Positions 377 to 21,182 of a DNA stretch of 21,609 nucleotides are shown here, piece by piece. This DNA comes from a virus: IMG/VR virus record IMGVR_UViG_3300031566_000431, positions 1-21,609 of that record. One strand, given 5' to 3'. Made by a program: the position numbers and the translations under genes. Within the stretch, counting starts at the first letter, position 1. Every line of letters starts with the position of its first letter. Below the pieces are notes generated by a model. The model saw nothing but the letters and a program-made list of their open reading frames with translations, did no database searches and was not told where the DNA came from.

Positions 377-2388
377 TGGAAAAAGTGACAGAAAGATCGT
401 TTTATAAGCGTTTTAGGCAAAATAAGTATAAAACCTTTCGCTACGTGGAATCTGAAAAAGGCGGCGGGAAAAATGGCAAACGATTGGAAATTGCCCTCTC
501 GAGTTTACATGCCGACGCCAGGGCTCGCTATTATAATGGCCTAAAAGAAGACGATAATAATCCCTCGAGGGAAATCTCCGATGCGCAGTTTGATGATTTT
601 GACCGGCAGCCGCAATATAAAAAGGATGAGGCCCTGCGGTGGGTGAAAATTATCGAGGGCTTTGAAGTCTATGCAAAAAACCAGGGTCCGAAACAGCGCG
701 TAACGGCTGCACATAATTACGTGAAGCTCTTCCGGATCGAACATCCCCGCCATACAGACGGCGGGCAGGCTCACGAAAAATCATTCAGCCATCAGACGCT
801 TTTTCGTAAGGTTCAGAGGTTCAGAGGTTCAGGGGTTCAAGGCTTGCTGCCCCAATCCGGCGCCACCCATAATTTTACCGAGTGGCCGGATGAGGCCAAG
901 GCTTACCTCTGGCAGAAATATTGCAACATCAACCAGCCCACGGCTATCTGGTGTATTGCACAACTGAAGGGCGAAGCAAAAAAACATCGATGGCGGCTGC
1001 CATCGGTTGCCACCATGCGCCGGTACCTGGAGCGGATCCCGCAGGAGACACGCGATCGATGGCGCAAGGGCGAGCGGTACTGGCGGGAGCATTACCTCCC
1101 TTCGGTGCTCAGGGATTATGAGCAGATGGACCCGGGCGAGCTCTATGTTGCCGATCATCAACAGATCAATGTGGCGGTCCGGCACCCGTCCGGTCGCGTT
1201 CTTTTTCCCTGGATCACGGCCTGGAAGGATATGAAGTCACGCAAGATCCTGGGCTGGGTCCTGGCGGATATCCCCTCGAGTAATACCATCAACCTTTCCC
1301 TAAAACATACCATCGAAAAATACGGGGCCTCAGAGCATGCCGTTATCGACAACGGCCGGGATTTCTCGGCACTGCATTTCACAGGCAAACAGACCAAGCG
1401 GTTTCGGTTCAAGGTGAATGAAAATGAGTATGAAGGCATTTATAAGCTTCTTAGCATCGAGCCGCATTTCTGCATCCCTGCCAATGCCCAGTCCAAGAAT
1501 ATCGAGCGGTGGTTCTGGACACAGGAATTGAATTTTCAAAAGGCATTCCCGACCTACCGGGGCAATAATACACAGAATAGACCCGAAGGCGTGGACGACA
1601 GGATTAAAAAGGGCGCCCTTCGGCAGGCTCAGGGTAAAAAAAGCGACATCCTGGAATGGGATGAATTCACCGGATGCCTGGAGAATTATCTGGAAAATTA
1701 CAATCAGGATCATGAGCACCAGGGCCACGGCATGGACGGGCGATCGCCCAATCAGGTATGGAATGAGTATTTTGCCACCCATGCGCAGCGGCGGATCTCG
1801 CCCGCATCGCTCAGGCTTCTGATGATGAAATCCAAGCGGGTCAAGGTGGGCCGGTTCGGGATCGTGGCATTCGGCGAGCGGTACCGCAGCGCAGAGGTCA
1901 TGGAGCATCAGGGTGAGTTCGTGGTGTACCGGTATGATCCGGCAGATCTTGCTATCCTTCATATATACACGGAAGAAAATGAATTCATCTGCACAGTGGA
2001 GCGCACATACCGCACGGCCTGGAATGATGAGACGGCATATCACGAGATCAAAAAGATCGAGAAGAAACGCAAGCAGGCCATTAAGGCCGAGCGCGAGGCG
2101 GCCGAGAACCTGATCGAGGTGGAATTCGGCTATCAGAAACAGGAGCCATCCGGGGAGCACCCGGACAAGCCGGCCAAGGTGATACGGGTGCTGCGCACGC
2201 AGCTGGATGGGGTGGAAAGGCGCATAGAGCGGAGCGCAGCCCACATAGAAGAAAAAGTGAGCCTGGAGCAATCCAGGGAAAAGTATATGGAGGCCTCCAG
2301 GCGGCGGCTCGAAGAGCGGGACAGAAAGCGCGAGGAAGAGCAGCGGCCGGGGAGGTTTTTTAAATTAACCATACCGGGAGGAAATTAA
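337..2388 (+). CDS. A: MuA-like DDE transposase
   Basis: This is the phage transposase (683 aa), which would bind the phage ends and catalyse replicative strand transfer. Residues 1-70 resemble the Mu-type winged-helix DNA-binding domain that opens MuA. The catalytic triad is visible: D273 in VADHQQ, D338 in VIDNGRDF and E390 in KNIERWFW, almost the same numbering as MuA (D269, D336, E392). The C-terminal 130 residues are highly charged and helical, as expected for the region that contacts MuB and ClpX. The start is the ATG at 337, with TAAGGA about 10 bases upstream. The stop abuts the MuB-like ATG directly. Two repeat-derived peptides sit inside: RFRGSGVQG near residues 160-168 and ALRQAQGKK near 427-435. 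The frame stays open, so the protein may still be active. Confidence 0.95.
   Translation: MSEIWLCPKEVTELEKVTERSFYKRFRQNKYKTFRYVESEKGGGKNGKRLEIALSSLHADARARYYNGLKEDDNNPSREISDAQFDDFDRQPQYKKDEALRWVKIIEGFEVYAKNQGPKQRVTAAHNYVKLFRIEHPRHTDGGQAHEKSFSHQTLFRKVQRFRGSGVQGLLPQSGATHNFTEWPDEAKAYLWQKYCNINQPTAIWCIAQLKGEAKKHRWRLPSVATMRRYLERIPQETRDRWRKGERYWREHYLPSVLRDYEQMDPGELYVADHQQINVAVRHPSGRVLFPWITAWKDMKSRKILGWVLADIPSSNTINLSLKHTIEKYGASEHAVIDNGRDFSALHFTGKQTKRFRFKVNENEYEGIYKLLSIEPHFCIPANAQSKNIERWFWTQELNFQKAFPTYRGNNTQNRPEGVDDRIKKGALRQAQGKKSDILEWDEFTGCLENYLENYNQDHEHQGHGMDGRSPNQVWNEYFATHAQRRISPASLRLLMMKSKRVKVGRFGIVAFGERYRSAEVMEHQGEFVVYRYDPADLAILHIYTEENEFICTVERTYRTAWNDETAYHEIKKIEKKRKQAIKAEREAAENLIEVEFGYQKQEPSGEHPDKPAKVIRVLRTQLDGVERRIERSAAHIEEKVSLEQSREKYMEASRRRLEERDRKREEEQRPGRFFKLTIPGGN
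809..842 (+). repeat. GGTTCA-family repeat inside the transposase gene
   Basis: Consecutive units of the form GGTTCAGA/GGTTCAGG/GGTTCAAG encode RFRGSGVQG in frame. The same units recur at 5235-5268, 9191-9256, 18861-18932 and 19875-19944. Here only the left arm of the palindrome is present, and its length keeps the frame open. Confidence 0.7.
1614..1640 (+). repeat. Fragment of the TTCG-CAGGCTCAGG repeat inside the transposase
   Basis: The sequence CTTCGGCAGGCTCAGGGTAA encodes LRQAQGK, a peptide I recognise as a common product of a dispersed TTCGACAGGCTCA-type repeat read in this frame. It falls between the catalytic E390 and the C-terminal part of the transposase, in a likely surface loop. 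Longer palindromic relatives are at 10389-10431 and probably 12119-12189. Confidence 0.6.
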
Positions 2389-3405
2389 ATGGCTATTCAA
2401 CCAGCAGTAAAAGACGATTTAACTGGCGTTAAATCAGCTGATAGCTCACAGCTCATAGCTGATAGTTACAACGAGGCACTTCATGAGCGGTTCATACTCT
2501 GGAAGGATCAGAGCGGGGCCTCGGTGAACCGCATCGCGGGTATGATCGGGCGAAGCGCAGCCCTTGTCTCCCAGTATGTCAACAAGATTTATAAGGGCGA
2601 TATGCCCGCGCTTGAAAAGGATATTATTAACCTCCTACGCAGGGAAGAGGACCTGGAGTTTACCACCCGGGCTGTTACCTTTTGCACTACCCTGTCATCA
2701 AAGCTGATATGGGAGGTCATGCAGTTCTGCGATGAGAATTGCGACATGGGCATGGTGGTCGGCGACGCAGGATCCGGCAAGACAACTACTTGCAACGAAT
2801 ACAAACGGGCCAATCGGAATACCATTTTTATTACCGCTGATATTGCCACCCGCTCAGTCGGTTCGGTGCTGCGAATGATCGCCAAAAAGGTGAGCGGCAC
2901 GCCGCATCCTGGCTCAAACAGCGCATTGCTGCATGCCATTATCGACCGGCTCAAGCACTCCCGGCGGCTCATCATCATCGATGAGGCCCACTTTCTCACC
3001 TGGGATGCATTCGAGGTAATTCGAAAGATTCACGATTGCGCCGAGATCGGTATTGTATATGTGGGCATGCCCCGCACCCTGGATCAAATGAAGGGCACTG
3101 CCGGTCGATCGTTTCTCTTTGATCAGATCTATTCGCGCATCTCCATCAAGCGGGATCACCTGCCGGTTGAGAAAAGCGATGTCCGGGTTATTGCCGATTC
3201 CATCGTCTCGGCTGCGCTCGACGCAGGTCAGCCGGGCCTGGACGCAGGGTGTATCGAGTATCTTTATACAAAGGCCCAGGGCAAGGGCAAGATCAGGACC
3301 GTGGCAAAACTGCTCCAGGTGGCGATCACCAGGCACAGGGAATACAACCAGCCGATGGGCCTGGAGCTGCTGAAAGAAGCAGAGCAATTTCTTTTACGGA
3401 GTTAA
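2389..3405 (+). CDS. B: MuB-like AAA ATPase, transposition target-selection protein
   Basis: In Mu, MuB binds target DNA in an ATP-dependent way, stimulates the transposase and gives target immunity. Here the 338-aa protein has a Walker A motif GDAGSGKTTT at residues 125-134 and a Walker B motif LIIIDEAH with D198/E199. Before these, about residues 30-85, lies a helix-turn-helix region (VNRIAGMIGRSAALVSQYVN) like the MuB N-terminal domain. GGGAGG at 2376-2381 precedes the ATG, which directly follows the transposase TAA, so the two genes are translationally coupled. Residues 15-27 (SADSSQLIADSY) are encoded by a copy of the TAGCTGATAGCTCA repeat, an in-frame addition near the N terminus. Confidence 0.93.
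   Translation: MAIQPAVKDDLTGVKSADSSQLIADSYNEALHERFILWKDQSGASVNRIAGMIGRSAALVSQYVNKIYKGDMPALEKDIINLLRREEDLEFTTRAVTFCTTLSSKLIWEVMQFCDENCDMGMVVGDAGSGKTTTCNEYKRANRNTIFITADIATRSVGSVLRMIAKKVSGTPHPGSNSALLHAIIDRLKHSRRLIIIDEAHFLTWDAFEVIRKIHDCAEIGIVYVGMPRTLDQMKGTAGRSFLFDQIYSRISIKRDHLPVEKSDVRVIADSIVSAALDAGQPGLDAGCIEYLYTKAQGKGKIRTVAKLLQVAITRHREYNQPMGLELLKEAEQFLLRS
2434..2466 (+). repeat. GCTGATAGCTCA-family repeat inside the MuB-like gene
   Basis: TCAGCTGATAGCTCACAGCT followed by CATAGCTGATAG forms an imperfect palindrome and is read in frame. Related units fill gaps at 11770-11870, 15853-15921 and 16582-16623. Confidence 0.65.
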
Positions 3406-3629: not shown

Positions 3630-4533
3630 ATGGGCCACAGAATCATGGAACCCAATCACCGGGTGCAGCCCGGTAAGTGAGGGCTGCGAAAATTGCTATG
3701 CCCGGCGCATGGCCTACCGGCTCAGAGGTCGTTTTGGGTACCCGAAAGATGATCCTTTTAAAATAACTTTTCATCCGGACAAAATTGAGAAACCCCTGCA
3801 CTGGAAAAAACCACGGGTGATTTTTGTCTGCTCAATGGGGGATCTGTTTCATAAGGATGTCCCTCACCATACATATATTGAAAATGAAGTAACTGTGAAT
3901 CATATCTATTTAACAAGTAAAAAATGCCCTCAACATATCTTTTTGATTTTAACGAAAAGACCAAAGGTAATGAAATCTTTTTTTAGTTGGATAACAGCCT
4001 TTGGAGGAAAAATCCCTGATAATCTCTGGCTCGGAGTCAGCGTTGAAAACCAACAACGAGCCGATGAGCGGATCCCGATCCTCTTGCAGATCCCGGCAGC
4101 AAAACGGTTTGTGAGCATCGAGCCCATGCTAGGGCCGGTAAATATAATTAATAAGCCGTGGTGGGATTGGAGATATACCTATTCTTTTTATCCTAAAGAA
4201 TACGTAAAAAAGCCTATTGATTGGGTCATCTGCGGCGGCGAATCAGGACCAGGCGCACGGCCGATGCATCCGAATTGGCCCCGGTCGATTAGGGAGCAAT
4301 GTCGGGAGGCGGAGGTGCCGTTTTTTTTCAAACAGTGGGGCGAATGGGCTCCTGAATGGGCACTGGAAATGGGCTACAAAGAAGAAAGAGCTGTAAAGGG
4401 TAATAAAGGAGGAAACAACAATCTCCCTGGATACCGTCATTTAATGTATAGGGTTGGCAAAAAATTCGCCGGCCGGCTCCTCGATGGCCGGGAATGGAAT
4501 GAAAGGCCGGAGGTAGACCATGCCACATCATGA
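3613..4533 (+). CDS. DUF5131 family protein (phage Gp37/Gp68)
   Basis: This 306-aa protein matches the phage Gp37/Gp68 family (DUF5131), common in Mu-like and other phages. It opens with WNPITGCSPVSEGCENCYA, giving cysteines 18, 25 and 28 in a Cx6CxxC pattern. Later family hallmarks are VICSMGDLF-like FVCSMGDLFH, LTKRP, WLGVSVEN, VSIEPMLGP, CGGESGPGARPMHPNW and FFKQWGEW. The cysteine cluster recalls radical-SAM or metal-binding proteins, but the activity of the family is not established. The stretch around 3870-3990 is more AT-rich than the rest and contains an unusual insert (IENEVTVNHIYLTSKK). GAGG precedes the ATG, and the C terminus overlaps the next gene. Confidence 0.88.
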   Translation: MPTKIEWATESWNPITGCSPVSEGCENCYARRMAYRLRGRFGYPKDDPFKITFHPDKIEKPLHWKKPRVIFVCSMGDLFHKDVPHHTYIENEVTVNHIYLTSKKCPQHIFLILTKRPKVMKSFFSWITAFGGKIPDNLWLGVSVENQQRADERIPILLQIPAAKRFVSIEPMLGPVNIINKPWWDWRYTYSFYPKEYVKKPIDWVICGGESGPGARPMHPNWPRSIREQCREAEVPFFFKQWGEWAPEWALEMGYKEERAVKGNKGGNNNLPGYRHLMYRVGKKFAGRLLDGREWNERPEVDHATS

Positions 4534-5371
4534 AGTGAAATGCCCATGCGGGAAAACTAAAACCATATACCGGAGCCCGAAACAACCGGTGCCGAAATAT
4601 TGCAGCATGGCATGCAGGTGGCGCTTCCATAGCGGCAATTATAAGCAGAGAAGATGGATTTTCACCCCTGAGATGGATGCCGAGATTAGTACGCTCTATC
4701 AGGAGCGGGTGCGGATGGGCTGGAAAAAGGATCGGTATAAAGGCCCGGTTAAGAAATTGGCCGAAAAATTCGGCATGCCCCGGTGGCGGGTGAGTAGTCG
4801 CGCACGCAAGCTCGGGGTCATACCGGTGCAGAAAAAGGAGCCTGTATGGTCGGAGACCGAGCTCTGGATCCTCAATCAATGCGCACATCGAAGCCCGGCC
4901 GTCATACAGAAATATCTCAAGCGGGCGGGACATCAACGAACGCAACTTGGAATCAATCTTAAAATGAAACGGCTGCATCTATCGCGCGCGACCATGAACG
5001 GGTATACATCCCGATCGCTCGCAGGGCTTTTTGGTATCGATGACCACGGGGTCATGCGGTGGATCAAAAAGGGCTGGCTCACTGCACAGAAGCGCGGCAC
5101 GGCCCGGACCGAGGCACAGGGCGGGGATGAATGGTTTATCCGGCCGGAGTGGGTAAAGGAGTTTATCATCAAGAACGTGGCGGTGATCGATTTCCGGAAG
5201 GTGGATAAATATTGGGTGGTGGAGATGCTAACGGAGGTTCAGGGTTCAGAGGTTCACGGTTCAAAGGTTATGTCTATGCCTGAGATTGTGGAGCCGGACG
5301 ACGTCGACATACAGTATTACGACGATGAAGAAGAGATGGATCTGGTTGAGGGATTGAGAGGGGTGTTATGA
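4520..5371 (+). CDS. Zinc-ribbon and helix-turn-helix DNA-binding protein, early region
   Basis: This 283-aa protein has an N-terminal zinc-binding pattern (C8, C10, C28, C32). A region with SANT/Myb- or homeodomain-like helices follows at about 45-150 (FTPEMDAEISTLYQERV, and a second WSETELWILNQC). At about 163-190 there is an excisionase/MerR-like HTH (SLAGLFGIDDHGVMRWIKKG). The C terminus is very acidic (DDVDIQYYDDEEEMD). Residues near 239-250 (VQGSEVHGSK) come from an in-frame GGTTCA repeat between the folded part and the acidic tail. It overlaps its neighbours on both sides. It is probably a phage transcription or replication regulator, but the target is unknown. Confidence 0.75.
   Translation: MPHHEVKCPCGKTKTIYRSPKQPVPKYCSMACRWRFHSGNYKQRRWIFTPEMDAEISTLYQERVRMGWKKDRYKGPVKKLAEKFGMPRWRVSSRARKLGVIPVQKKEPVWSETELWILNQCAHRSPAVIQKYLKRAGHQRTQLGINLKMKRLHLSRATMNGYTSRSLAGLFGIDDHGVMRWIKKGWLTAQKRGTARTEAQGGDEWFIRPEWVKEFIIKNVAVIDFRKVDKYWVVEMLTEVQGSEVHGSKVMSMPEIVEPDDVDIQYYDDEEEMDLVEGLRGVL
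5235..5268 (+). repeat. GGTTCA-family repeat inside the HTH protein gene
   Basis: Four units (GGTTCAGG, GTTCAGA, GGTTCACG, GTTCAAAG) in a row, read in frame as VQGSEVHGSK. Only the left arm of the family palindrome is seen. It falls in a linker between the HTH part and the acidic tail. Confidence 0.65.
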
Positions 5372-6471: not shown

Positions 6472-6956
6472 AACTTATATGCCCGAAATGCGGATCACGA
6501 TTTGAAATGGACCAGGCCGTGAGGGAATTGGAACAGTCGGAAACCCACGACATCGCTGCAAAGCTGGGGCAGCATTGGCGGCTGGTATATGAGTATTCGG
6601 ATTGTTTCAGGCAGAGCGAGTACGGCAATGTTCCATTGACAACTCGCCTGCGCACTTTTAAAAGTATTGTCCAGCTTTTGGATACAAATAAATTTGAATA
6701 TCGCAAAAAATGGTATCGCACTTCCTGGCATGAGTCTATCAAAGCCATGACCCAAATTTGCAATCTGCAAAAAACAGGATTCACGAATAATAACTACCTT
6801 TACAAAATGCTGTTAGGTACCTCTGACCGTCTCAGCGCCGAGGGATTGAGTGCGAAGGAGGAGCAGGCGCGCTTGGATAATCCAGGGCGCGTAGCGTATT
6901 GTGAGGAGCCGGAGAAGGTGGACTTTAAAAAATTGGCCGCAGATGCACGCAGATAG
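6468..6956 (+). CDS. Early-region protein with CxxC motif, unknown function
   Basis: This 162-aa protein starts LICPKCGSRF (C5, C8), half of a zinc ribbon, then a mostly helical body with many aromatic and charged residues (KFEYRKKWYRTSWHESIKAM). It is coupled to the previous gene by an ATGA overlap. The last residues (KLAADARR) and the stop codon are supplied by the CAGAT-type palindromic repeat at 6936-7011, so the original C terminus was probably slightly different. No family recognised. Confidence 0.6.
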   Translation: MKLICPKCGSRFEMDQAVRELEQSETHDIAAKLGQHWRLVYEYSDCFRQSEYGNVPLTTRLRTFKSIVQLLDTNKFEYRKKWYRTSWHESIKAMTQICNLQKTGFTNNNYLYKMLLGTSDRLSAEGLSAKEEQARLDNPGRVAYCEEPEKVDFKKLAADARR

Positions 6957-7011
6957 ACGCAGATTAAAAAATATTAATTATTATCGGTGATGATCTGCGT
7001 AAATCAGCGGC
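6936..7011 (+). repeat. CAGAT-family palindromic repeat, copy 1
   Basis: Left arm GCCGCAGATGCACGCAGATA, a central AT-rich part (AATATTAATTATTAT) and a right arm GATCTGCGTAAATCAGCGGC make an imperfect inverted repeat. The same design recurs at 9684-9758, 10322-10391 and 20465-20539. The copy overlaps the end of the upstream gene and ends about 10 bases before the next ribosome site. Confidence 0.8.
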
Positions 7012-7031
7012 AATAAAATGGAGGTTTTGAA

Positions 7032-9013: not shown

Positions 9014-9478
9014 ATGAGCTTATCGAATAAACAAAAAACACTGGCGATTGTGGCCTTCCGGCAGCTGGGGATCGGTGAAGAGGACCGGCACCGGATCCAG
9101 GCCGAGTTCGGGGGCCACCGGTCGCTCACAAAGATGAGCTATCAGGGATGGCTGGAGCTGGTCAGGCATCTGGAAGAGTGTGGGTTTAAAGGTTCAGGGT
9201 TCAGGGTTCAGGGTTCAAAATTAAAACCCAGAACGGTGAACGGTGAACGGGGAACCTGCAGTCGTGCACCTCTCATCTCCAAGATCTACGTCCTCTGGTA
9301 TCAGCTGGCAGGCACGTATTATATACCCGGTAAAGAGAAGGCCGCCCTGCGGGGATTCCTGCGCAAGCGATTCCGGGTGGATCATGAGAATTTCCTGGAT
9401 GTGCCAACCGCGATCAAGGTGATCGAGGCCATAAAGGCGATCATCCAAAGGAAGCTTGGAAAAGCGATTTGGGATTAG
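9014..9478 (+). CDS. gemA: GemA/gp16-like regulatory protein (DUF1018)
   Basis: The N-terminal part (KTLAIVAFRQLGIGEEDRHR ... LTKMSYQGWLELVRHLEECG) matches the Mu gp16/GemA family, small early regulators that alter host gene expression. The C-terminal part (ISKIYVLWYQLAG ... FLRKRFRVDHENFLDVPTAI) is also typical. The chosen start is ATG 9014, with GGAGGT just before it. A longer frame from 8951 would overlap the previous gene and add unrelated residues. Residues about 59-81 are encoded by a complete GGTTCA palindrome (9191-9256) inserted in frame between the two family blocks. The protein is 154 aa. Confidence 0.8.
   Translation: MSLSNKQKTLAIVAFRQLGIGEEDRHRIQAEFGGHRSLTKMSYQGWLELVRHLEECGFKGSGFRVQGSKLKPRTVNGERGTCSRAPLISKIYVLWYQLAGTYYIPGKEKAALRGFLRKRFRVDHENFLDVPTAIKVIEAIKAIIQRKLGKAIWD
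9191..9256 (+). repeat. Complete GGTTCA palindrome inserted in frame in the GemA-like gene
   Basis: Left arm: repeated GGTTCAGG/GTTCAGG/GTTCAGG/GTTCAAAA. Right arm: AACCCAGAAC, GGTGAACGGTGAAC and GGGGAACC. The whole inverted repeat is 66 bases, a multiple of three, and is read through without a stop, adding residues such as GSGFRVQGSKLKPRTVNGER. Confidence 0.75.
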
Positions 9479-9672: not shown

Positions 9673-9683
9673 ATGGGGGTATA

Positions 9684-9758
9684 GCCGCGGATCTACGCAG
9701 ATTCCCGCAGATTAAAAATATTAATTATTATCTGCGCCTATCGGCGAAAATCAGCGGC
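9684..9758 (+). repeat. CAGAT-family palindromic repeat, copy 2
   Basis: Arms GCCGCGGATCTACGCAGATT and CTATCGGCGAAAATCAGCGG, with the same AATATTAATTATTAT centre as copy 1. It fills the space between the terminator and the amidase start. Confidence 0.8.
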
Positions 9759-9772
9759 AATAAAAGGGCTAT

Positions 9773-10342
9773 ATGAAACCCTTCAAAGTATTTGTTGATC
9801 CCGGTCACGGCGGCCCTGATAACGGCGCAGCCTGGGGTGAGAAATACGATTACCTCGAGGAGGATGATCTGAATCTCAATATTGGTTTTTTGATCCGACC
9901 CGAGCTTCTTCTTTCCGGCTTTGAGGTTCGAATGTCACGAGAAAGTGACGAGCCGGTTCCCTTAGAGCGCCGGGTGGCGATGGCCAATTATTGGGGCGCG
10001 GATGTGTTCGTTTCCATCCACGCCGACGCCTTTCACAACATCACCGCCAAAGGGATCACAACGCATATCTATACGCACGCCTCGCAGGATTCGCTGATTC
10101 TTGCCACATGGGTACAGGCCGGGCTCATCAAAAAATTTATGGATCACACCAACCGGAAGGTCAGGAAATCGAATTTTTATGTCTTGCATCATACCACCAT
10201 GCCGGCGGTGCTGGTGGAATGCGAGTTTATCTCCAATCCGGACACCAGGCGCTTTTTAAAGGAGCCGGAAAACCAGCTTGCCTTAGCACAGGCCATCGGC
10301 GGAGGGGTGAAGAAATATTTAGCCACAGATCAGCGCAGATGA
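9773..10342 (+). CDS. N-acetylmuramoyl-L-alanine amidase (Amidase_3), endolysin
   Basis: This 189-aa protein would cut the amide bond between MurNAc and L-Ala in peptidoglycan to lyse the cell. It has the Amidase_3 fold signatures: VFVDPGHGG with zinc ligand H12, an acidic ligand near 30-32 (EEDDLNLN), SIHAD with H83, and the catalytic glutamate E149 in PAVLVECEFISN. There is no signal peptide, so release would need the holin encoded downstream. It consists of the catalytic domain only, without a wall-binding domain. The last residues (ATDQRR) and the stop come from CAGAT repeat copy 3. The ribosome site is weak (AAAAGGGC). Confidence 0.93.
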   Translation: MKPFKVFVDPGHGGPDNGAAWGEKYDYLEEDDLNLNIGFLIRPELLLSGFEVRMSRESDEPVPLERRVAMANYWGADVFVSIHADAFHNITAKGITTHIYTHASQDSLILATWVQAGLIKKFMDHTNRKVRKSNFYVLHHTTMPAVLVECEFISNPDTRRFLKEPENQLALAQAIGGGVKKYLATDQRR

Positions 10343-10431
10343 ACGCGGATTAAGAAAAAATAATATCTGTGAAAATCTGTGAAAATCAGCCGTTCGACAG
10401 GCTCAAGGCCATGAGCGAAGTCGAATGGCGG
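10322..10431 (+). repeat. CAGAT palindrome (copy 3) fused to a TTCGACAGGCTCA palindrome
   Basis: 10322-10391 has CACAGATCAGCGCAGATGAA and, on the right, ATATCTGTGAAAATCTGTGA. It runs directly into 10389-10431, where TTCGACAGGCTCA pairs with TGAGCGAAGTCGAA around AGGCCA. Two repeat families are joined end to end between the amidase and the next small gene. The open frame crossing them is not treated as a gene. Confidence 0.75.
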
Positions 10432-12194: not shown

Positions 12195-12665
12195 ATGACT
12201 TATCCTGAAGATACCAAAGAATTAGCAGAGGAAATCTACGTATACGACGGGAAAACGCTGGAGCAGGTATGCGAGCAGACACAGATTCCCATGCCTACGC
12301 TCAAACAGTGGTCGTCCGATGATGGCTGGTTTCAGAAAAAAAAGGAATACCGGAGCGCGGCCCTGGCCATTAAGCACGATACGATCCAGCTCCAGAGGCG
12401 GTTGACTGAAAAGGCCCTCGAAACCCTGGATCCCCAGGCGATCTATGCACTCTCACGCCTGCGCGCGGCAACCAGGAAAGAGGGTGCGCAGGATCAAAAG
12501 GAGCCGGACATCGACCGGCCGCGGATGTTTCTCGAGGATATGGAGTTTGCCGTGAAGATCCTCCAGGAGGTGGATCCCCAGGCATTGAAAGTATTCGGCA
12601 AACATTTCGGGCTGATTGTGCGGAGGTGGAAGGATAGCCACCAAGACACTAAGACACAAAGCTAA
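12195..12665 (+). CDS. Small terminase subunit (DUF1804/Mu gp27-like)
   Basis: This 156-aa protein begins with an HTH-like region (KELAEEIYVYDGKTLEQVCE, then QIPMPTLKQWSSDDGWFQKK), as in phage small terminases that recognise packaging sites. A long helical region follows. It sits directly before the large terminase. The C-terminal HQDTKTQS and the stop are encoded by the ACACTAAGACACAAAG palindrome at 12637-12703, so the tail is repeat-derived. The ribosome site is weak (AAAGGGAA). Confidence 0.75.
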   Translation: MTYPEDTKELAEEIYVYDGKTLEQVCEQTQIPMPTLKQWSSDDGWFQKKKEYRSAALAIKHDTIQLQRRLTEKALETLDPQAIYALSRLRAATRKEGAQDQKEPDIDRPRMFLEDMEFAVKILQEVDPQALKVFGKHFGLIVRRWKDSHQDTKTQS

Positions 12666-12703
12666 ATAACTAAAAGAACTTCGTGCCTTCGTGCCTTTGT
12701 GGC
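12637..12703 (+). repeat. ACACTAAGACACAAAG / CTTTGTGGC palindrome, copy 1
   Basis: GCCACCAAGACACTAAGACA and CAAAG on the left pair with CTTCGTGCCTTCGTGCCTTT and GTGGC on the right. The same element occurs at 21118-21182. It supplies the end of the small terminase gene and the sequence just before the large terminase start. Confidence 0.85.
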
Positions 12704-14246: not shown

Positions 14247-14280
14247 ATGCAAATTGAAAATTGCAAATTGGGAAATGAAA
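14246..14280 (+). repeat. AAATTGCAAATTG short repeat
   Basis: AAATGCAAATTGAAAATTGC followed by AAATTGGGAAATGAAATATG. The repeated AAATTG units form an imperfect palindrome filling the 35 bases between terminase and portal genes. It is a family distinct from the others. Confidence 0.5.
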
Positions 14281-17693: not shown

Positions 17694-17760
17694 GTTGAAT
17701 GGTTAAATCGTTAAATCGGAAAACTATTTAACAAATCAACGAATTAACCATTTAACCAAA
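17694..17760 (+). repeat. GGTTAAATCG / TTAACCATTTAACC palindrome
   Basis: GAATGGTTAAATCGTTAAAT on the left and GAATTAACCATTTAACCA on the right are inverted around AACTATTTAACAAATC. It forms the whole gap between the protease/scaffold gene and the next ribosome site. Confidence 0.75.
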
Positions 17761-17775
17761 ATGGAGGTTTTTATC

Positions 17776-18852
17776 ATGACAGCATTAACAGAAGATAAAA
17801 AATTGGAGTATACCGAAGGTGTTGAATTGCCCTTCGAGGTATCGGCAGAAGACATAATTTATGCCGGCTCTTTTGTATGTGTAGGTGCAGACGGCTACGC
17901 GGTGCCGGGCGCGGATACGGCAGGATTGATCTTTGAGGGCGTGGCCCGTGAGTACGTTGATAATTCCCTCGGCCTGGATGGCGACAAGAGCGTGGTCCTG
18001 CGAAGGCGCGGCCTGATCAAGGCCCTCATGGAGACGGCCATCACTATCGCCAATGTGGGCGATAACGTATTCCTGGCATACGACAATAGCGTGGATGTCA
18101 CGGGCAATGTCGTCAACAATATTTTCTGCGGGGTCATTGCAGGATACATCGACACCACCCATGCCTGGATCGATATCGAGCCCGCCATCCGCCAGGCGGA
18201 CGTGGCCACCCATATCGCGGACGCAAGCGCGGCCCATGCGGCCTCGGCCATCAGCATTGCCGATGCGGGCCTGTTCACGACCGCGGCCGAGGTGGAGGCG
18301 GCCCTCCAGGAGATCTACCAGCATATTATCACGACAAAGGGGATTATCATTATTCCCATGCCCACGATCACGGATGCGGGAGTAGCACTGGCCGCTTTTG
18401 CGGATGCCGAAGATCCCCTGCCGGGATTCTGCGTGACGGCCGAGGGGCTCGGTATCCGGTGGAATGATCACAACACGCCCACACCGGTCGGGACCAAGGT
18501 CATGATCCCGCCTGATATGGATATCACCGCCAATGCGGTGGTTCATATCCTTGCGGCCAAGATCGGGGCGACGGCAGGCGACGCGACCAAGTTTACCGTC
18601 CAGGCGTTTAACAACGTGGTTGCCGCGCTCTATGATGCGGATGATGATTTCGGAGGCGATACCGATGCGATGGTCGGGGATGAAGATACAAAGACCGTGC
18701 AGCACGTGACCCTCACCCTGGCCCTGGCGAACCTGGCGGCCTATCCGGCGGCATTGGAGCTGACCTTCCAGCCGAAGGACGGCACCCTGGACACGGATGA
18801 TGTCATCATGCTCAGCCAGTGGATCGAGTATACGCGCAAGGCATTGACATAG
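17776..18852 (+). CDS. Capsid decoration-like protein with long C-terminal extension
   Basis: This 358-aa protein starts at ATG 17776, with TGGAGG at 17762-17767. Residues about 1-135 (EGVELPFEVSAEDIIYAGSF, ADTAGLIFEGVAREYVDN, GDNVFLAYD) resemble the DUF2190-like capsid cement/decoration domain seen beside major capsid genes. A linker of the type found in phage surface proteins follows (THIADASAAHAASAISIADA, then TTAAEVEAALQEI). The last 150 residues look like a beta-sandwich (TKVMIPPDMDITANAVVHIL, LELTFQPKDGTLDTDDVIML). The extension probably projects from the capsid surface. Function is inferred from layout and position just before the capsid gene. Confidence 0.7.
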   Translation: MTALTEDKKLEYTEGVELPFEVSAEDIIYAGSFVCVGADGYAVPGADTAGLIFEGVAREYVDNSLGLDGDKSVVLRRRGLIKALMETAITIANVGDNVFLAYDNSVDVTGNVVNNIFCGVIAGYIDTTHAWIDIEPAIRQADVATHIADASAAHAASAISIADAGLFTTAAEVEAALQEIYQHIITTKGIIIIPMPTITDAGVALAAFADAEDPLPGFCVTAEGLGIRWNDHNTPTPVGTKVMIPPDMDITANAVVHILAAKIGATAGDATKFTVQAFNNVVAALYDADDDFGGDTDAMVGDEDTKTVQHVTLTLALANLAAYPAALELTFQPKDGTLDTDDVIMLSQWIEYTRKALT

Positions 18853-18860
18853 TAATAACT

Positions 18861-18932
18861 AGGTTCACCGTTCATCGTTCAGGGTTCAGGGTTAAAACCT
18901 TTGAACCTTTGAACCTTTGAACCTTTGAACCC
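18861..18932 (+). repeat. GGTTCA / TGAACC palindrome, intergenic copy
   Basis: Left arm AGGTTCACCGTTCATCGTTC plus AGGGTTCAGGGTT, right arm AAACC followed by four TTTGAACC units. It is the complete palindromic form of the repeat found in three coding regions here. It ends just before the CGGAGG ribosome site of the capsid gene. Confidence 0.8.
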
Positions 18933-19874: not shown

Positions 19875-19944
19875 AGGTTCATAGGTTCACGGTTCAGAGG
19901 TTCAACGTTTTTTAACCTTTAAACCCAGAATCCAGAACCCAGAA
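19875..19944 (+). repeat. GGTTCA palindrome, second intergenic copy
   Basis: AGGTTCATAGGTTCACGGTT and CAGAGGTTCAACG on the left, TTAACCTTTAAACCCAGAAT and CCAGAACCCAGAAC on the right. It lies directly before the three-arm structure at 19946-20003. Confidence 0.75.
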
Positions 19945-19945
19945 C

Positions 19946-20003
19946 GCCCCAGTGAAATCGCCCTTTGGGCGTGTCCCGATATATCGGGACAATTTCACGG
20001 GGC
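19946..20003 (+). repeat. Three-arm cruciform repeat before the gp35-like gene
   Basis: Outer arm GCCCC/GGGGC and GTGAAA/TTTCAC enclose two further hairpins: GCCCTTTGGGC (19960-19970) and GTCCCGATATATCGGGAC (19973-19990). The RNA or single-stranded DNA would fold as a three-way junction. It ends just before the ribosome site GGGAGG (20005-20010). It is a separate family from the others in the window. Confidence 0.8.
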
Positions 20004-20016
20004 AGGGAGGATTATT

Positions 20017-20475
20017 ATGATCCGAATACGGAGTAAACGGCATAATTTTCGCCGGTGCGGTATGCCGCACCCAAAGGAGCCGGTTGACTATCCTGATGAT
20101 CGATTCACTCTCGAAGAGCTCAAGATCCTCGGAAAGGAGGCCATGCTGATTGTGGAGATAATTCCCGATGAACCGGAACTCCCACCGGAGCCAGCGGAGA
20201 TTGAGGAAAAAGAAGTTGAGGCAGAGTCAGAATCAGAGCCGGAGGTAAAAGACGAGCTCGTAGAGGCGGAGAAGGAAGAGCCTGGAGAGGATGAACTTTC
20301 AGTAGACGTAGAAATAGGGGAATCGCCCATCGTATTGGCGGCCCTGGCTGCTATTGATGCCGGCGAGGTGACAAAGGATGGCAAGCCGCTCGTAGAAGCG
20401 ATGGAGGAAAAGCTCGGCAGAGCTATCACCGCGGTTGAGCGGGATGCAGCCTGGGAGAAGTTGGTCACAGATTAA
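20017..20475 (+). CDS. Mu gp35-like head protein (HI1506 type)
   Basis: This 152-aa protein begins IRIRSKRHNFRRCGMPHPKE with PVDYPDDRFTLEELKILGKE, the conserved N terminus of FluMu gp35-like proteins. The centre is a strongly acidic, Glu/Pro-rich stretch (ELPPEPAEIEEKEVEAESES), and a small helical domain ends the protein (AALAAIDAGEVTKDGKPLVE ... ERDAAWEKL). It is located as in Mu, between the major capsid and gp36. The ribosome site is GGGAGG at 20005-20010. The C terminus (LVTD) and stop run into CAGAT repeat copy 4. Confidence 0.75.
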   Translation: MIRIRSKRHNFRRCGMPHPKEPVDYPDDRFTLEELKILGKEAMLIVEIIPDEPELPPEPAEIEEKEVEAESESEPEVKDELVEAEKEEPGEDELSVDVEIGESPIVLAALAAIDAGEVTKDGKPLVEAMEEKLGRAITAVERDAAWEKLVTD

Positions 20476-20539
20476 CACAGATGAACGCGGATTAAAAAAA
20501 ACAATAACTATCTGTGAAAATCTGCGTGTATCTGCGGCA
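20465..20539 (+). repeat. CAGAT-family palindromic repeat, copy 4
   Basis: CACAGATTAACACAGATGAA and CGCGGATT on the left, ATCTGTGAAAATCTGCGTGT and ATCTGCGGC on the right. It begins inside the last codons of the gp35-like gene and ends before the AAAGGAG ribosome site of the next gene. Confidence 0.8.
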
Positions 20540-20550
20540 AAGGAGTATGC

Positions 20551-20978: not shown

Positions 20979-21113
20979 ATGAGCGGCCGGGTGGCGAAAA
21001 AGATCAGGAAGGTCGCCAACAAACGATATATGGCGATGATACGGGCAATAGGGAAATTGCCATTTAAAAAACGGCTCTGGTTTGCCTGGCGCATAGTAAA
21101 GGGACTTAAATAA
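20979..21113 (+). CDS. Small very basic protein
   Basis: A 44-aa frame starting 2 bases after the gp36-like stop, rich in Lys and Arg (SGRVAKKIRKVANKRYMAMI), with an amphipathic C-terminal half (KRLWFAWRIVKGLK). Short basic proteins of this shape occur among head genes of several phages. The coupled position supports it as a gene. It may bind DNA or capsid, but this is not shown. Confidence 0.55.
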   Translation: MSGRVAKKIRKVANKRYMAMIRAIGKLPFKKRLWFAWRIVKGLK

Positions 21114-21117
21114 GGAG

Positions 21118-21182
21118 GGCCACTAAGTCACCAAGACACAAAGCTTAATATTTTATTCTTAGTGCCTTAGTGCCTTTGTGGC
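21118..21182 (+). repeat. ACAAAG / CTTTGTGGC palindrome, copy 2
   Basis: GGCCACTAAGTCACCAAGAC with ACAAAG pairs with TTAGTGCCTTAGTGCCTTTG and TGGC around an AT-rich centre. It is the same family as 12637-12703 and again sits exactly between two genes. Confidence 0.85.

Follow-up and report, generated by a model that had tools for sequence, protein, structure and literature searches.

A heptamer-built palindrome in frame in the gemA gene of a Mu-like phage, probably one copy of an element dispersed in phages and many bacterial phyla

Introduction

Palindromes that lie within coding sequences and are translated have been described in Rickettsia, where these protein-coding elements (RPE) are about 150 bp long (Ogata 2000, as summarised in the review PMC10969869). 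Short tandem units are the hallmark of a second kind of repeat, the dispersed heptamers, among which TAACTGA shows a patchy cross-phylum range (PMC4679880) and GGGNATC is another example (PMC4692102).

The DNA analysed here (the window, meaning the whole stretch) is an entire virus record of 21,609 bases. Its gene set includes MuA-, MuB-, portal-, MuF-, gpI- and gpT-like genes, and the phage is Mu-like. Its GemA-like gene contains a 66-nt palindrome which, as argued below, is probably one copy of a dispersed palindromic element built of heptamers, which many bacterial phyla share with this clade of phages.

The palindrome in the gemA gene

The features of this locus are the following:
9014 to 9478, plus strand: GemA-like coding sequence of 154 residues (open reading frame; PF06252, E 6e-18)
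9191 to 9256, plus strand: GGTTCA heptamer palindrome, in frame, codons 60 to 81 (sequence, fold, translation, pLDDT)
9191 to 9217, plus strand: left arm, four GGTTCA units at spacing 7 (GGTTCA count, array detection)
9230 to 9256, plus strand: right arm, GAACGGT-type units at spacing 7 (array detection)

The 66 bases are exactly GGTTCAGGGTTCAGGGTTCAGGGTTCAAAATTAAAACCCAGAACGGTGAACGGTGAACGGGGAACC, which occurs once in the window and consists of four GGTTCA units, an AT-rich loop and four GAAC units. Starting at codon 60 of the frame opened by the ATG at 9014, they are translated without stops into the 22 residues GSGFRVQGSKLKPRTVNGERGT. The preliminary description had reported both arms at this place, a length divisible by three with no stops, and a 22-residue linker between two conserved blocks; the sequence bears out the first two, and for the third the reading frame and an AlphaFold model agree. 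The window has 35 occurrences of GGTTCA where 9.9 +/- 3.3 would be expected, a count reached by 0 of 100 shuffles. The strand from 9171 to 9276 folds at -38.6 kcal/mol (z -4.1, with none of 200 shuffles equally good), although the palindrome is imperfect, each seven-base unit giving a helix of 4-5 bp with small internal loops in between. The left arm could also form a G-quadruplex as far as its sequence goes, but this folding would hardly be general, since most other unit families lack G runs.

The identity of the host gene was confirmed by Pfam (66.3 bits, where the gathering cut-off is 27). Residues 22-146 (125 residues) align with model positions 3-119 (117), so that the net gain in length over the family model is about 8 residues and not 22. 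The AlphaFold model, built from nine sequences, has a mean pLDDT of 73.9; the helical halves on either side of the linker reach about 80-88, and linker residues 62-66 and 68-82 fall below 50. On this model, the peptide is best explained as an unstructured spacer of 22 residues that would join two folded halves.

The GemA linker in related phages

Five relatives of this GemA were found in viral contigs in a first search and more in a second one. The nearest is G001 (locus L001), with 81% identity in the best segment, whose linker has the same element in the same position. It is the only homologue with this feature, the others having different repeats or none, and therefore the palindrome does not belong to the old, conserved parts of GemA; homologues that had all kept a linker of this sequence and length might have suggested that it did. 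The linkers contain AACTCGC units in G003 (L003), ACAACGG units in G004 (L004) and GTCAGAA units in P105, and those of G005 and P104 are without an array. In total, arrays with a period of seven (lag-7 arrays) are present in five of the eight aligned GemA genes and belong to four unit families; a CCCTTCGACTTCGCTCAGGGC hairpin in G002 (L002), seen by eye, comes in addition. It should be noted that eight arrays or hairpins recognised by eye, such as this one and the hairpin in the MuA linker of the window, were missed by the lag detector. Just before gemA, G001 has an insert of 54 nt with GAAACTK units that the window does not have.

Repeat-free linkers were observed in Mu and in three bacterial GemA homologues (L226-L228), the three matches obtained from 389 genomes of one class. 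A tblastn search for relatives in GenBank phages returned none at 1e-5, and a GemA pattern search of the genome collection confirmed none of 257 stretches. The linker is about 20-25 residues long in repeat-free relatives and 31 in the window, from which it follows that the element fills a segment of variable sequence and that its net contribution to length is small. Thus, the earlier wording that the palindrome was spliced into the gene holds for its in-frame position, but not for a plain gain of 22 residues.

Regarding the comparison between the window and G001, the element is identical at 56 of 66 positions and parts of gemA at 160 of 177 and 161 of 190. The element diverges about as fast as its gene, and thus there is no sign of recent movement. 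A recent exchange, considered because of an exact run of 44 nt common to both, was rejected, as a run of 52 nt lies close by and the similarity is just as high across the 5' part of gemA (the 160 of 177 positions). The left arm and the loop are as in the window; the right arm differs, CCCAGAAC-type units replacing the GGTGAAC units.

These linkers bear on the explanation that should be considered the main rival, namely expansion in place. Replication slippage would produce heptamer arrays in fast-evolving linkers and spacers, and template switching would add hairpin arms, with no movement from site to site, and different units at one site would be independent expansions. Each copy has homogeneous arms that are unlike those of other copies, the right-arm difference from G001 being a uniform one, and the G003 linker includes units intermediate between the GGTTCA and GAGTTAC types, all of which would fit such a process. 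In addition, heptamer over-representation is already known and is ascribed to slippage (PMC4679880, PMC4692102). Slippage within sites probably contributes to the turnover of units; as the whole explanation, however, it is unlikely, as one unit family with nearly the same peptide recurs in unrelated genes and phyla.

It could also be thought that selection maintains the palindrome for its structure, as an RNA hairpin that regulates gemA. The strong fold in the window is matched by that of the G001 copy (z -4.2) and approached in the G003 linker (z -2.6). Nevertheless, the arrays at the same site in G004 (z 0.3) and P105 (z 1.8) form no strong hairpin, G005 and P104 have no array at all, and a scan of the window with Rfam gave no match to known RNA families, so this function is the least probable of the explanations considered here.

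Repeats at other sites of the window and of related phages

Further repeats in the window were compared with the corresponding sites of related phages:
810 to 839, plus strand: GGTTCA array at spacing 8, left arm only, inside the MuA-like coding sequence 337-2388 (aligned without gaps to four orthologues)
1612 to 1634, plus strand: GGCGCCCTTCGGCAGGCTCAGGG hairpin in the MuA linker, with other repeats or none in orthologues (alignment)
2436 to 2465, plus strand: AGCTGAT heptamer array near the N-terminus of the MuB-like coding sequence (array detection, alignment)
5236 to 5269, plus strand: GGTTCA array in the open reading frame 4520-5371 (AGCTGATAGC at the same place in the G001 orthologue)
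14251 to 14270, plus strand: AAATTG-type array between terL and the portal gene (site empty in G004)
17694 to 17756, plus strand: GGTTAAAT palindrome upstream of the open reading frame beginning at 17761 (array detection, fold)
18862 to 18931, plus strand: GGTTCA palindrome between the open reading frame 17761-18852 and the gpT capsid gene (a GGTTAC array there in G004)
19876 to 19946, plus strand: GGTTCA palindrome downstream of gpT (array detection, fold)

Partial GGTTCA copies in other genes, mentioned in the preliminary description, are thus found at 810-839 and 5236-5269. The changes of repeat seen in GemA recur at several of these sites. The MuA linker contains a CCCTTCGGCAGGCTCAGGG hairpin (by eye) in the window, GAAACTK units in G003 and GCGCAAA units in G004, and it is short and repeat-free in P104 and P105. 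At the N-terminus of MuB, G004 has another hairpin (by eye) and four other phages have nothing. The portal gene carries a GGTTCA array in G008 and none there in the window, G003, G004 or G005. Together with the open reading frame at 4520 and the filled or empty sites at gene junctions, these cases support the reading of a dispersed element.

On the other hand, the array at 810-839 is a counterpoint, as its gap-free alignment to four orthologues indicates that not every array is an insertion. This array arose without a change in length, which favours expansion in place. The length of the orthologues and much of their peptide are retained, as if the site had been overwritten in place, and the G003 orthologue shows a different 8-base periodicity at this spot.

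Other repeats were also observed in the window. A second dispersed family, with a GCAGATnnACGCAGAT arm and a ATCTGCGnnnATCAGCGG arm at a spacing of about 10, has four copies at gene junctions (6933-7021, 9681-9768, 10319-10403 and 20461-20548) and several more in G001. A third one, CACTAAGACAC ... CTTCGTGCCTTCGTGCCTTTGTGGC at spacing 8, has intergenic copies at 12630-12703 and 21112-21182. Finally, there are short palindromes, TCCCGATATATCGGGA (19974-19989) and GCCGTTCGACAGGCTCAAGGC (10389-10409), with similar ones in the GemA linkers of G003 and G002.

Heptamer periodicity

Lag 7 accounts for 40 arrays in ten phage pieces (160.7 kb), compared with 0-9 at each of the lags 4-6 and 8-13. Markov controls give hardly any, and phage Mu lacks lag-7 arrays altogether. 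P104 includes a CAGTNAT array which is close to the TAACTGA type. Strong hairpins (z < -2) were found at 16 of 39 phage arrays (lags 7 and 8) versus 9 of 118 random windows. The remaining arrays are single arms, and several of those inside genes have no second arm, so what the arrays have in common is the short tandem unit, which takes the form of a palindrome in some of them. In bacterial loci (80 of the 120, L106-L185), 61 lag-7 arrays remain after masking GTTC/GAAC arrays, and at most 10 at any other lag from 4 to 13. Mismatches seemed somewhat concentrated by phase, as if the heptamer core were conserved, with 45 of 62 phage arrays exceeding expectation, but this result was not used, as selecting arrays by lag identity biases the test.

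Palindromes in bacterial genes

A gapped palindrome pattern was searched in the genome collection and at least 121 palindromes were found in at least 120 stretches, mostly from metagenome-assembled records. The phyla among the matches listed include Planctomycetota, Desulfobacterota, Proteobacteria, Lentisphaerae/Verrucomicrobia, Omnitrophota, Acidobacteria and others. Across all 120 loci, 24 of the 121 listed palindromes lie inside an open reading frame (at least 100 residues, with at least 30 on either side of the palindrome). This share is far below gene density, as would be expected if most insertions in genes were harmful. A Pfam scan of these 24 frames matched 15 of them to families and gave nothing for nine. 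The matched proteins are ValRS, Gln/Glu-RS, PheS, PheT, MnmG, an M50 peptidase, homoserine dehydrogenase, an M17 aminopeptidase, an epimerase, a GcvPB-like protein, a secretin, a solute-binding protein, two Eco57I-like proteins and a TPR protein. The insert falls within a domain in some of them and between or before domains in others, and the peptides are similar from gene to gene (GSGFRVQGS, then EPRTLNPEP or alike). In the case of ValRS, the insert is missing from the T. thermophilus chain 1gax.

The Gln/Glu-RS offers the clearest comparison. Lacipirellula limnantheis and two relatives (L129:841-2718, L264-L266) carry an in-frame palindrome inside the catalytic domain. The synthetase was found in 35 of 43 genomes of the family and 30 loci were compared, of which three have the insert (+28, +22 and +24 residues) and 27 an empty site, 25 of these recognised by pattern, each exactly 11 residues long, and two by alignment. 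The site thus passes from 11 to 33-39 residues with no intermediates among the 30 loci, which argues against stepwise expansion in place. No target-site duplication was seen by eye at this site, where the flanks have diverged. An empty and filled pair is clear for this gene; in GemA, relatives carry other repeats or none.

Among Desulfobacterota, GTTCA palindromes occur in 14 of 148 genomes, and GAAACT arrays in five of 148, a result of little weight since controls match too. These genomes bear on another explanation, a REP-like element mobilised by a host RAYT (Y1 HUH) transposase. The element is palindromic and dispersed, and long Y1 open reading frames (at least 250 residues) were found in 12 of 16 palindrome-positive versus four of 16 palindrome-negative genomes. 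This count is uncorrected for phylogeny; the positives are 13 of the 14 palindrome genomes (G016 left out) plus G009, G013 and G014, and the 16 negatives were drawn from the head of a list of 134, not at random. REPs normally flank their RAYT. Here, however, a GTTC heptamer array lies within 300 bp of only one of the 34 long Y1 loci in positive genomes (L295), and no GTAG or CGTC tag was seen. RAYT mobilisation was rejected despite the association at genome level, and is considered very unlikely.

At that one locus (L295:850-966), a GGTTC heptamer palindrome lies close upstream of the long Y1 transposase.

Tolerance in reading frames

According to the genetic code, a (GGTTCAG)n arm gives the cyclic peptide G-S-G-F-R-V-Q in all three frames without stops. 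In the opposite arm, built of CCTGAAC units, a TGA recurs at intervals of 21 nt in each frame, and the arm stays open if only the in-frame TGA changes, to CGA or AGA. The element can be tolerated because one arm is stop-free in all frames and the other needs this single change. In the 15 Pfam-matched genes, the critical base is C at 13 of 13 in-frame positions, and T at 25 of 35 out-of-frame positions of the same copies; it is T at 161 of 283 in copies outside open reading frames, and A at the corresponding base of the window and G001. The C at the in-frame stop position follows from the open reading frame, so it is a position-specific change and not independent proof of translation.

Proposed origin of the element

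Considering all these data, a dispersed heptamer-built palindromic element is probably the best explanation. Insertion or replacement would bring its copies to many places, and those in loops, linkers and gene junctions that leave the frame open would be retained by selection. The arms probably turn over through slippage or conversion between units, as the uniform right-arm difference between the window and G001 suggests. The copies are not near-identical, and a pattern of units describes them better than a single fixed sequence does. In the loci examined, neither a target duplication nor an exact junction nor a mobile enzyme was found for the element.

A broader proposal may be put forward tentatively, as possible but rather doubtful: a cross-phylum superfamily of heptamer palindromes, common to phages and hosts, that a dedicated mechanism copies into junctions and loops, with unit families interchangeable at each site. 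Since seven-base units give the same cyclic heptapeptide in every frame, they could serve as ready-made, frame-blind linkers that reshape core enzymes such as the aminoacyl-tRNA synthetases.

Comparison with known systems

No description of this element was found in the open-access literature by DNA string, peptide string or topic. Phage Mu GemA belongs to the same family and has two conserved halves around a variable linker, but this linker has no repeat. REP/REPIN sequences with their RAYT are also short dispersed palindromes; the present element, in contrast, has neither the tag nor systematic RAYT flanking, and many of its copies are coding. The TAACTGA and GGGNATC repeats resemble it in their dispersed arrays of about four tandem seven-base units, and the lag-7 excess of the phage DNA agrees with this. 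However, they are mostly intergenic direct repeats, whereas complementary arms form a hairpin here and coding copies lie in conserved genes.

The RPE, as the review presents them, are the closest in behaviour, being dispersed palindromes found in frame in many unrelated genes, with a recurrent peptide and several families. The element described here is in frame in GemA and in the 15 Pfam-matched reading frames, and has an empty site in Gln/Glu-RS. It would thus behave like an RPE, but its description sets it apart from RPE proper: about 50-70 bp instead of about 150 bp, tandem seven-base units, and occurrence in phages and many phyla instead of Rickettsia. The separate parts (coding palindromes of Rickettsia, TAACTGA and GGGNATC heptamers) are already in print.

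How selfish DNA enters essential genes and is tolerated there is a question that could be tested in the cultured L. limnantheis, and arms that are open in all frames in one direction offer a simple reason for this tolerance. In-frame coding palindromes are best known from Rickettsia; the same behaviour now appears in phages and in many phyla, synthetase genes included, and the element appears to be widespread, a stretch of DNA for which proteins can find room as a linker.
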